The position numbers and the translations under genes were made by a program. The notes below the pieces were generated by a model that searched no databases, was not told where the DNA came from, and worked only from the letters and a program-made list of their open reading frames with translations. From positions 124,001-188,000 of the forward strand of contig JAQGPJ010000041.1 of NCBI GenBank assembly GCA_028293125.1: DNA of 64,000 bases. Reading direction: 5' to 3'. Within the stretch, counting starts at the first letter, position 1. The number at the start of each line of letters is the position of its first letter. Source of the DNA: Verrucomicrobiales bacterium. GTDB lineage: Bacteria > Verrucomicrobiota > Verrucomicrobiia > Verrucomicrobiales > V1-33. This document shows positions 10,851 to 16,955 of the stretch, piece after piece.

Positions 10851-11693
10851 ATGTCCCACCCGACCGCTTTCTGCCCCGCCAACATCTCCTTGATATTCGA
10901 AACCTACGACGCCGAGCCGCCCCATCCCCGCGGCTCCCTGGGAGTGGGCATCACGCTGGATGCGGGGGTCACGGCGCGGGTTTCCCGGCTGCCCGCGGAG
11001 GTCCAGGAATCGGAAATCCTGGTCGCCGGCCAGCATTGGAGGTTTCCCACGGTCCGCGGCGTTCTGACTGCCCTGACATCCGAGCCCCTGCGCGTGGAGC
11101 TGGAGGCCGCCTTTCCCTTTGGCTGCGGATTCGGCATGAGCGGGGCCAGCGCACTGTCCACGGCGCTGGCGGTGAATGCCCTGCTGGAACTGCATCTCGA
11201 CCGCAGTGCCTTAGCGATGGCCGCCCACCGCGCGGAGGTGGACAACGCCACCGGGCTGGGGGACGTCGGCGGGCAGTTCAATGGCGGCATCATGATCAAA
11301 ACCCGGCGTCATGAGCCCCTGCTGGTGGAGCGTCTGGCCCTGACCGCGCAAACACTGCACTATCGGATCCACGGCCCCATCTCCACCGCCGAAGTCATCA
11401 ACAGCCGGGAGAAACTGCTGCACATCAACCGCGCCGGTCATGCCGCCATGGCGGAAATCCGGGAGGCCGGCAACACTCTGACCCTGGAGCGGCTTTTCCG
11501 CATCTCCCACCGCTTCGCCACCGGATCCGGGCTGCTGCGGAGTCCCGCCGTGGCCGCCGATATCGCCGCCGCCGAAGCCGCCGGACACGCCGCCAGCATG
11601 ATCATGCTGGGTGAGGCCGTCATCAGCACCGGCCCTTTTCCCGGCAGCCGGGAGGCGGGCGTGGTTTTTGAGGGCGCACAGCTTGTAGCGTGA
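10851..11693 (+). CDS. GHMP kinase, pantoate-kinase-like
   Basis: The product has 280 residues. The GHMP ATP-binding motif appears as PFGCGFGMSGASALSTALAVN-type sequence at about residue 89-109. The N-terminus, CPANISLIFE followed by PRGSLGVGITLDAGV, resembles archaeal pantoate kinase, where the equivalent patch is a Gly-Ser-Arg-Gly-Ala-Gly turn. Further GHMP patches are GLGDVGGQFNGG and MLGEAVIS. In archaea this enzyme phosphorylates pantoate on the way to coenzyme A; bacteria normally use PanC and CoaA instead. No CoA gene is adjacent, so the substrate remains open. ATG 10851 was preferred because the upstream 17 codons show no family character. Confidence 0.72.
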   Translation: MSHPTAFCPANISLIFETYDAEPPHPRGSLGVGITLDAGVTARVSRLPAEVQESEILVAGQHWRFPTVRGVLTALTSEPLRVELEAAFPFGCGFGMSGASALSTALAVNALLELHLDRSALAMAAHRAEVDNATGLGDVGGQFNGGIMIKTRRHEPLLVERLALTAQTLHYRIHGPISTAEVINSREKLLHINRAGHAAMAEIREAGNTLTLERLFRISHRFATGSGLLRSPAVAADIAAAEAAGHAASMIMLGEAVISTGPFPGSREAGVVFEGAQLVA

Positions 11694-11885
11694 TGTCTCT
11701 GCCTTTGAAAGGCACAGCATGCGGAAAGGCTGAAATCTTTCTCCCAGCCTTTCCTTCCCGGAAATCCGTGCTTATCCGTGCCGCCTCCGTGGCATGGAAC
11801 CGAGTTCCAGCGGCCTTTATGGAACTGCCCTCCGGCCACGCAAAAGTCCCCTTCCCTCTCTTTTCCTCCGCCTCCCTCCCGCTTC

Positions 11886-12986
11886 ATGTTTGTCCACAAT
11901 TCAGCCGACGCCGCCGCCTTCCGCGATTCCCTGCATACCGCCGGCAAGCGCCTTGTTTTCACCAGCGGCTGTTTTGATGTGCTGCACGCCGGCCATGTGC
12001 GTTATCTGGCCCAGGCCCGGGCGCTGGGAGATGCGCTTATCGTGGCGCTGAATTCCGATTCCTCCGTCTCGGCTCTTAAAGGCCCCTCCCGGCCCGTCAA
12101 TTCCGAGGCCGACCGCGCGGAAATCCTGCTGGGCCTGAAATCCGTGGATGCCGTGATTGTGTTCGGCGAACCCCGCACCACGGAGCTGATCCGGCAAATC
12201 CGGCCCCATCTTTTTGCCAAGGGGGGTGACTACACACCTGAAACCCTCGATGCGCAGGAGCGCCATGCCCTGGAGCAGATCGGCGCGGAGATCCACATCC
12301 TCCCCGCCGTTCCCGGACGGTCCACCACCGCCACCTTGGGCCGCCTGGCATATCCGGAATCCCCGGAGGCCACGGCTCCGGCAGCAGCAAAACCCGTCCG
12401 CCGTCCCCGGCTGGGGGTGCTGGGATCCGGGGAAGGCACCAACTTCGGCGTGATTCTCAAAGCCATCGAGGCCGGCACGCTGAACGCGGAGGTCGCGCTG
12501 GTGCTGTCCGACAACTTCCACGCGCCCATCCTCGACCGCGCCAAGGTCAAAGGCATTCCCTCCACTTGGGTGGATCCCGGGGAGCATCCCAACCGGTTTT
12601 CCCTGAAGGCGCAGCAGGAGGCCAGCCGCCGCTTTCAGGAGGCGGACTGCGATCTGATTGTCTGCGCCGGCTTCATGCGGCGGCTGAAAGACCCGGTGCT
12701 CACCGATTTCGCGGGCCGCATTGTCAATGTCCACCCCTCCCTGCTTCCAGCCTTCCCCGGCCGCTCGGCCTGGGTGCAGGCGTTCGAGGCGGGCGTGGAA
12801 GAGGCCGGCTGCACGGTGCATCTCATCGACGCCGGCATCGACACCGGCCCCATTCTGGCCCAGAGCCGCGTCCCGGTGCTGCCCACCGACACCGCCGACA
12901 CCCTGCGCCAGCGCATTCAGGCGGCGGAGTATCAACTCTTCCCCGCAGCCATTCAGGACCTGCTGCTCAGGCTGCCGCCGCGCTGA
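11886..12986 (+). CDS. Fusion of heptose-1-phosphate adenylyltransferase (HldE C-terminal domain) and GAR formyltransferase (PurN)
   Basis: The product has 366 residues in two complete domains. Residues about 22-155 match the cytidylyltransferase-like domain of HldE/RfaE2, with FTSGCFDVLHAGHVRYL, ALNSD, LKGPSRPVN, AKGGDYTPE and GRSTT. This domain transfers AMP to heptose-1-phosphate for lipopolysaccharide core sugars. After a Pro/Ala linker (about 157-173), residues about 175-363 match PurN. These include GSGEGTNFGVIL, CAGFMRRL, NVHPSLLPAFPG (catalytic Asn281 and His283) and DAGIDTGPIL (Asp319). PurN formylates glycinamide ribonucleotide in purine synthesis. The start at ATG 11886 begins just before the HldE-like fold. 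Joining these two pathways in one chain is unusual. A role of the second domain as a sugar formyltransferase was considered, but all PurN residues are intact. Confidence 0.88.
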   Translation: MFVHNSADAAAFRDSLHTAGKRLVFTSGCFDVLHAGHVRYLAQARALGDALIVALNSDSSVSALKGPSRPVNSEADRAEILLGLKSVDAVIVFGEPRTTELIRQIRPHLFAKGGDYTPETLDAQERHALEQIGAEIHILPAVPGRSTTATLGRLAYPESPEATAPAAAKPVRRPRLGVLGSGEGTNFGVILKAIEAGTLNAEVALVLSDNFHAPILDRAKVKGIPSTWVDPGEHPNRFSLKAQQEASRRFQEADCDLIVCAGFMRRLKDPVLTDFAGRIVNVHPSLLPAFPGRSAWVQAFEAGVEEAGCTVHLIDAGIDTGPILAQSRVPVLPTDTADTLRQRIQAAEYQLFPAAIQDLLLRLPPR

Positions 12987-15287: not shown

Positions 15288-16955
15288 TCAACTGCGTGGC
15301 CGGAACCACTTCAGCGGATTCAGAAAATCCCAAGGACGGCGGTGGCTGGAGCGGCGGAGCAGCATGACCGTGCCAATCACCAGAAAAATCCCATTGATCA
15401 TCCAAGCTCCGGCGGCGGGCGGCAGATAGAGCCCCTCCCCGGCCTTCAGCGACAGAGAGGAAAGGAAATACACCGCCACAAAAAGCCCCACTGCCATGCT
15501 GATGCCCCCCAGCAGTCCCCGCCGGGCGGAGACAATGCCCAACGGGGCGGCCAGCAGCACCAGCAGGAAGCAGCGGAACGGCAGAGCGAAACGCCAGTGC
15601 ATGGTGGCCTCGTATTTCGCCAGACTCCGGGCGGGCAGCGACTCATTGGTGTGCAGGTAGGAAATAAGTTCCGGCACCCCCAGAAACTCCGGGCTGAGGC
15701 GGTCACTCAGAATACTGCCCGGCGTCTCCTTCCACGGCTCCGGAATGACCAGTTTGTCCGCCGCCCTCAGTTTGACCCACGTCATGTCCGGCCCGGCAAT
15801 GGTGATCTGGGCCTGATGGAAGGTCCACGACTTCCGCACAGGGTCCCATACTGCCTTTTTCGCCATGATCACGCGGTCGGGATCGCCGTTGGGCTTCTGC
15901 TGGAACACCCAGACCTCGCTAATGGCGTTTTTGGCCGAAATATCGTAGGGCAGCTTGTAAATAAGCCACGTCCGTTTGTCCTCCCGGTTCCGGTAGGGAA
16001 CATTGTACTCCACGCCGACGGTGCTCTGACGGCTCTTTTTGTCCTCATTCCGCATCTCCTCGGACTGCCGGTCCGCCTTGGGGGCCAGCTGGTAATTCAG
16101 GGCCGCCACCGCCAGCGAGCACCACGCACCGAAAATCAACACCGGAGCAATGACCCGGATGACGCTGCGGCCGGCCGACATCATGGAGGTGATCTCATTG
16201 TAGCGGGACATGCGCCCCAGACAGTAGAGCGCCGCCAGCAGCAGTCCGGCCTCCGTGATAGTCACCAGGATTTTCGGCAGGATGACCAGGTAATAGAGGA
16301 CGATCTTCCAGAATCCAAACTTCGCCTCCACAAAATCGCGGGCATTGTTCAGCAGATCCATGGTGATCATGATCGCGGAGATGCCGCAGATGCAAAGCAG
16401 GAACGGGAAGAGAAAGTTCCGCACCAGATACCGGTCCATGATGGTGGACCGGTAGTAGAGCCACCACAGCAGCGGCACGCTCATGATCAGAAAGCCCACC
16501 AGCGCCAGTTTCACAAAGTAGGCCCCGGGCGTGGCCACCATGCCCAGCGGATCACTGAAGGCGCGTTGCAGGTTCCCGTGCAGATCGGCTCCCAGCCACC
16601 AAACAAAAAACCACGTGCAGACCAAGGTGATGGGCAGCAGCAACTGCGGGCGGCGCAGTCTCAGCAGAGACAACAGCAGCGCCGGGGCCATGCAGGCCGC
16701 CAGCTTCACCCAGTGGCGGGAGAAAAACGAGTAGGCCAGATCCCAAGCCTCGTCGGGATGGGCCACAGCCTTCACCTGAAGCCCGGTCTGGGCGTCACTG
16801 TTCAGCGCCAGGAGATACCTGACGGTGATCACCATCCAGACCGCTGCTCCCAGCAGGGACAGCACTGTGCCGGCACAGGGCACCTTTTCGATCCAGGCTT
16901 TGACACGCCCCGGGATACGGAACGCGGAGTGCTGATGGAGACTGGACCAACCCAT
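15288..16955 (-). CDS. LptF/LptG (YjgP/YjgQ) family permease with extra N-terminal membrane region
   Basis: The product has 555 residues. From about residue 168 it matches the LptF/LptG permeases, with TIMDRYLVRNFLFPFLLCI, LLNNARDFVEA, LPKILVTITEAGLLLAALY, GRMSRYNEI and MMSAGRSV. A periplasmic beta-jellyroll segment (about 290-450) and C-terminal helices follow. These permeases pull lipopolysaccharide from the inner membrane as part of the LptB2FG exporter. The first 165 residues add about four more membrane helices and are not part of the standard family, whose members have about 360 residues. The LptB ATPase is not in the window. The region 16956-17105 holds no gene. Confidence 0.85.
   Translation of the reverse strand: MGWSSLHQHSAFRIPGRVKAWIEKVPCAGTVLSLLGAAVWMVITVRYLLALNSDAQTGLQVKAVAHPDEAWDLAYSFFSRHWVKLAACMAPALLLSLLRLRRPQLLLPITLVCTWFFVWWLGADLHGNLQRAFSDPLGMVATPGAYFVKLALVGFLIMSVPLLWWLYYRSTIMDRYLVRNFLFPFLLCICGISAIMITMDLLNNARDFVEAKFGFWKIVLYYLVILPKILVTITEAGLLLAALYCLGRMSRYNEITSMMSAGRSVIRVIAPVLIFGAWCSLAVAALNYQLAPKADRQSEEMRNEDKKSRQSTVGVEYNVPYRNREDKRTWLIYKLPYDISAKNAISEVWVFQQKPNGDPDRVIMAKKAVWDPVRKSWTFHQAQITIAGPDMTWVKLRAADKLVIPEPWKETPGSILSDRLSPEFLGVPELISYLHTNESLPARSLAKYEATMHWRFALPFRCFLLVLLAAPLGIVSARRGLLGGISMAVGLFVAVYFLSSLSLKAGEGLYLPPAAGAWMINGIFLVIGTVMLLRRSSHRRPWDFLNPLKWFRPRS

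Follow-up and report, generated by a model that had tools for sequence, protein, structure and literature searches.

An HldC-like adenylyltransferase and PurN joined in one protein in the order Verrucomicrobiales

The fused gene and its surroundings

The window, that is, the whole 64,000-nucleotide stretch of a Verrucomicrobiales genome analysed here, carries a gene for a 366-residue protein in which an adenylyltransferase (AT) of the HldC/RfaE-domain-II type is followed by a linker of ~26 residues and then by PurN (Table 1). A Pfam search of this protein recovered CTP_transf_like at residues 26–125 (7.8e-16) and Formyl_trans_N at residues 177–356 (8.4e-47). An alternative in-frame GTG upstream, at position 11778, would extend the product to 402 residues; the start of L037, the nearest homologue, aligns with the ATG at 11886.

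Table 1. Features of the fused gene and its product in the window.
Feature	Position	Strand	Basis
Fused hldC-like/purN gene, 366 aa	11886..12986	+	One open frame; homologues found
AT half (rfaE_dom_II/HldC-like), residues 14–153	11925..12344	+	TIGR02199, Foldseek, phmmer
HAGH (HxGH) nucleotidyltransferase motif, residues 34–37	11985..11996	+	Alignment with E. coli HldE
Linker, predicted disordered, residues 145–170	12318..12395	+	pLDDT <50; length and sequence differ among relatives
PurN half (GAR transformylase), residues 175–360	12408..12965	+	TIGR00639, Foldseek 3auf
PurN triad residues Asn281 and His283 (N106 and H108 in E. coli)	12726..12734	+	Alignment with E. coli PurN
PurN triad residue Asp319 (D144 in E. 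coli)	12840..12842	+	Alignment with E. coli PurN

The fusion of AT and PurN in one protein is real. The gene lies in the interior of a 205,540-base contig, and the identical fused frame is found in 47 of the 71 genomes sampled from the order and in eight named records; because it recurs across so many separate assemblies, an assembly or frameshift artefact, which a preliminary description of the locus had named as a possible refutation, is ruled out for all practical purposes. The claim of that description that one chain joins the two enzymes is thus borne out by the single frame, the two Pfam domains and the recurrence.

Directly upstream of the fusion lies a gene for a GHMP kinase (10854–11690, + strand) that resembles the archaeal-type pantoate kinase (it scored 148.5 bits against NF040725, whose cut-off is 380), an unusual likeness for a bacterium. 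The – strand encodes an LptF/LptG permease at 15288–16955, so that a gene for LPS export is found near the fusion.

The adenylyltransferase half

Against the NCBIfam model rfaE_dom_II (TIGR02199), the AT half scored 164.9 bits, below the cut-off of 181.5, which is exceeded by two of its relatives, the split AT of genome G171 (186.8 bits) and that of G416 (182.8 bits). The nearest solved structure is HldC, with a phmmer match to 5x9q (3.1e-27) and a Foldseek match to 5xf2 (4.4e-13). The HxGH, NSD, KG, KGG and STT motifs of E. coli HldE are conserved in the AT half. It resembles HldC of Burkholderia pseudomallei (5x9q, 5xf2), as described in excerpts of PMC7993394, in its fold, the HxGH region, NSD, KG, KGG and RSTT, but has TSG and EPRT in place of TNG and ExTP and lacks the Phe of FEHDRSTT; furthermore, the B. 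pseudomallei enzyme stands alone, whereas the AT half is fused to PurN. The same excerpts list TNG, NSD, KG, ExTP and KGG as the putative substrate-binding motifs of HldC, so that two of the five are altered here. Of the 39 fused rows, 11 have TSG for TNG, and an xRxT-like motif replaces ExTP in most members of the class that were examined (residues ~95–99 of the window protein), which makes it a possible AT subfamily signature of the class. Therefore, the preliminary assignment of all catalytic residues to both enzymes holds for the PurN triad (see below) and goes somewhat too far for the AT half.

That description had also referred to the domain as HldE. The bifunctional HldE has a kinase and an AT in one chain, and neither Pfam nor NCBIfam models detected a kinase domain in the fused protein. 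In HldE of E. coli and in the HldE-like protein L091 of the Akkermansia-type family, the AT likewise forms one half of a fused enzyme, but its partner there is a heptose kinase from the same pathway, whereas the partner of the window AT is PurN and the kinase is encoded by a separate gene.

Because the TNG and ExTP motifs differ from those of HldC, heptose 1-phosphate should be regarded as a putative substrate. These substitutions, together with the score below the TIGR02199 cut-off, indicate that it may not be the substrate, in which case the AT half would act on some other sugar phosphate and the fusion would have the same history. We consider this unlikely, as G171 and G416 do exceed the cut-off, HldC is the nearest solved structure and the AT is accompanied by the kinase HldA. 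HldA (>240 bits) was found in 33 of 35 AT-bearing genomes (a hand-picked set of available genomes, with 33 belonging to the order) as against one of five genomes without the AT (Fisher p 0.0008). Among genomes that are at least 90% complete, it was present in 29 of 29 with the AT and in one of three without. The exceptions are G425, which has HldA without the AT, and G384 and G389 (82–83% complete), which have the AT without HldA.

The PurN half and the linker

The PurN half scored 192 bits against TIGR00639 (cut-off 150.1), and its best Foldseek matches are PurN structures (3auf, 1.9e-22). The catalytic triad is complete, with N281, H283 and D319 corresponding to N106, H108 and D144 of E. coli PurN, of which we take Asn106 to be a catalytic residue. 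PMC3261824, in excerpt, assigns catalytic roles to His108 and Asp144. The window protein has the fold, the Asn-His-Asp triad and a score above the PurN cut-off in common with the PurN enzymes of E. coli and Symbiobacterium (3auf), and differs from them in its additional N-terminal AT domain and linker. The Halobacteria provide another case of PurN inside a fused enzyme, PurN-PurH1, although both halves of that protein serve one pathway (PMC3261824, in excerpt), unlike those of AT-PurN.

AlphaFold2, run on the window protein aligned with eight homologues, predicted two confident domains (mean pLDDT 83.9, pTM 0.55) separated by residues 145–170 with pLDDT below 50. Measured from motif to motif, the linker comprises 13–45 residues in most fused proteins and 129–145 residues in G416 and G422 (two of the 39 fused rows were not measurable). 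The long linkers of the latter two (L088 and L089; ~130–145 residues) are rich in proline and alanine and contain TQSIP/TQGIP-like repeats.

Copies and partners in the genome

The preliminary description suggested looking for stand-alone copies of either enzyme and held that separate full-length copies of both, with an inactive fusion, would speak against its claim. None was found: the fusion is the sole rfaE_dom_II match in its genome and the sole PurN above the cut-off. Two weaker PurN-like matches, considered as candidates for a second PurN, proved to be PurU and Fmt, which score 398.5 and 244.5 bits, respectively, and exceed the cut-offs of their own models. The PurT model had no match above its cut-off in the genome; the best one (139.8 versus 502 bits) is presumably PurK. 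Since the genome has a single AT, a single PurN and no PurT above the cut-off, both halves are probably needed. With no other PurN and no such PurT, purine synthesis would depend on the PurN half, and formylation of glycinamide ribonucleotide (GAR) with 10-formyl-THF is its likely activity. The genome also encodes one HldA-like kinase (323.9 bits, slightly below the cut-off of 345), whose gene lies on the same contig ~67 kb downstream of the fusion, beyond the window.

These data bear on the new nucleotide-sugar formylation activity suggested in the preliminary description; in this reading, the formyltransferase half would formylate the product of the AT half, a nucleotide sugar. In its favour, the Formyl_trans_N fold is common to sugar formyltransferases such as ArnA. 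However, the fused protein scored only 40.6 bits against the ArnA-type model (cut-off 777) but above the cut-off of the PurN model, it has the full PurN triad, purine synthesis appears to require its PurN half, and the two halves are lost or decay independently of each other (see below). To our knowledge, moreover, heptose carries no amino group that could be N-formylated. We regard such a combined activity as highly improbable.

Distribution of the fusion

A survey of domain architecture of the kind proposed in the preliminary description located the fusion in 47 of the 71 genomes sampled from the order, or 47 of 53 when the Akkermansia-type family is left aside, and in two of 76 genomes of the class sample. 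In 45 of the 47 it was recovered as one stop-free match, and in G416 and G422, which have the long linker, the frames were checked. The fused frame was inspected directly in 34 of the 47 genomes; in the other 13 the evidence is a profile match listed without internal stops. As for the unfused genomes, the two genes are split but adjacent in G171, PurN is present alone in G386 and G395, and no match was found in three of the 71 (G396, G412 and G425). In the remaining 18 of the 71 genomes, those of family f2, PurN either occurs on its own or lies at a different place from the AT. In G002 of this family, the AT is part of the HldE-like kinase-AT protein L091, and in G019 the kinase and AT matches adjoin and are both listed with one 558-residue frame.

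The eight named records with the fusion, all of them MAGs, are labelled Verrucomicrobiales, Verrucomicrobiaceae, Verrucomicrobiia, Verrucomicrobia, Prosthecobacter debontii and Akkermansia muciniphila; the labels are those of the records themselves, and several of the records represent the same loci as the sampled genomes.

Gene adjacency and origin of the fusion

In the class sample (n = 76, threshold E 1e-22), apart from the two genomes with the fusion, the two genes lie on one strand less than 300 nt apart in 24 genomes (seven of these being single matches with internal stops) and 300–1000 nt apart in five; both genes are present but apart in 29, and only one was found in 16. One candidate fusion, a 464-residue frame in G015, turned out on a frame check to be two adjacent genes. 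In all 14 unfused adjacent loci that were examined, the earliest possible purN start is no more than 31 nt from the stop of the AT gene. The phylum sample (79 genomes) includes 52 from beyond the class, 15 of which hold both genes, in no case adjacent when read by eye. As adjacency is common within the class and was seen in none of these 15, it appears to be characteristic of the class.

In a tree built by a quick method from 85 rows of concatenated AT and PurN domains, the fusions of the order form one group with support 98, in which the split G171 is included. Fusions also occur in two families beyond the order, f44 (L012 and L016) and f33 (L021). The fused members of f44, G367 and G175, sit among unfused members of that family, and G260 of f33 is placed elsewhere. 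Monophyly of all fused rows was rejected with G171 left out (p-AU 0.00135) and marginally so with G171 added (p-AU 0.0454), which argues against a single fusion event across the class. More than one event is thus likely rather than certain, probably with separate fusions in the two families besides that in the order, and the number of events is uncertain because the trees were made by a quick method.

Independent loss and decay of the halves

Two genomes, G395 and G386, encode PurN with an intact triad and have neither an HldC-type AT nor a full HldA. In the PurN tree, G395 nests with support 100 among the fused members of its genus, so it has lost the AT half. In G386, which has likewise lost the HldC-type AT, we noticed a 274-residue frame (L159, G386:C62) with two weak nucleotidyltransferase-like stretches.

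The opposite situation is found in G391, G404 and G407, which keep the AT half and HldA and have a PurN half altered at key residues: Gly or Ala replaces the equivalent of Asp144, Leu that of the loop Asn13 and Gly that of Met89. Two of the three proteins were scanned (L041 and L043) and fell below the PurN cut-off of 150.1, with 133.1 and 135.8 bits. In L041, L042 and L043, the PurN half thus appears to be decaying in place, its catalytic Asp gone and the AT half intact. PurT was found above the cut-off in five of 11 genomes tested, including the congeneric G386; G391, G404 and G407 are outside these 11. By these sequence comparisons, the AT and PurN halves evolve independently, which argues against a joint reaction as well as against formylation of a nucleotide sugar.

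A probable two-headed protein

The reading that we favour, with a probability of about 0.8, is a two-headed protein that arose from an adjacent gene pair and combines an HldC-type AT and PurN without a shared reaction. The N-terminal half would catalyse the AT step of ADP-heptose synthesis (heptose 1-phosphate + ATP -> ADP-heptose + PPi), working with the separately encoded HldA kinase, and the C-terminal half would formylate GAR in purine synthesis. Ancestral co-directional neighbours, an hldC-like gene followed by purN, would have been joined in frame within the class, leaving the halves with expression and a chain in common but no reaction, so that either could be lost or decay alone. Among the three options of the preliminary description, a tolerated chance fusion comes closest; 'tolerated' fits, and 'chance' is incomplete, given that the two genes were neighbours ancestrally in this class. 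Indeed, the conserved adjacency and the probably repeated fusion exceed pure accident, and selection for co-expression could have played a part. Joint control of LPS and purine supply, the second of these options, is conceivable.

A stronger version of this argument would have the fusion selected because having both enzymes on one chain co-regulates purine supply and the synthesis of envelope sugars, or links them allosterically, so that the kept adjacency and the repeated fusion would reflect a physical or allosteric coupling of purine supply to envelope heptose synthesis. The retention of adjacency in many families of the class, the additional fusions in f44 and f33 and the rejection of a single clade all point in this direction. 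Nevertheless, we find such coupling quite improbable: the two genes are apart in 29 of the 76 class genomes, G171 is split within the fused clade, the linker varies from ~13 to 145 residues and is predicted to be disordered in the window protein, and each half is lost or decays alone in some relatives. If coupling were true, it would constitute a new regulatory link.

Literature searches for heptose or rfaE with purN, adenylyltransferase, fusion and Verrucomicrobia, in which listed papers were judged by title, did not find the AT-PurN architecture, nor did they find any described link between the purine and envelope heptose pathways; a word search of PMC4921024 and PMC11237513 found no mention of purN or heptose. 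AT-PurN brings known enzymes together in a new combination of domains. Under the two-headed reading, it offers a clean example of how enzymes from two unrelated pathways come to be fused, all the intermediates (genes apart, adjacent, fused and split, one half lost, one half decayed) being visible within one bacterial class, and a warning against taking every fusion for a functional link ('Rosetta stone' inference). It also means that annotation with one name per protein misses one of the two enzymes.

A comparison of gene neighbourhoods found no neighbouring gene common to all fused loci. One neighbour of ~670–700 residues (cluster c2), which we take by eye to be a UvrD/PcrA-type helicase, is conserved beside the AT-PurN pair in L039, L089, L090 and L098.
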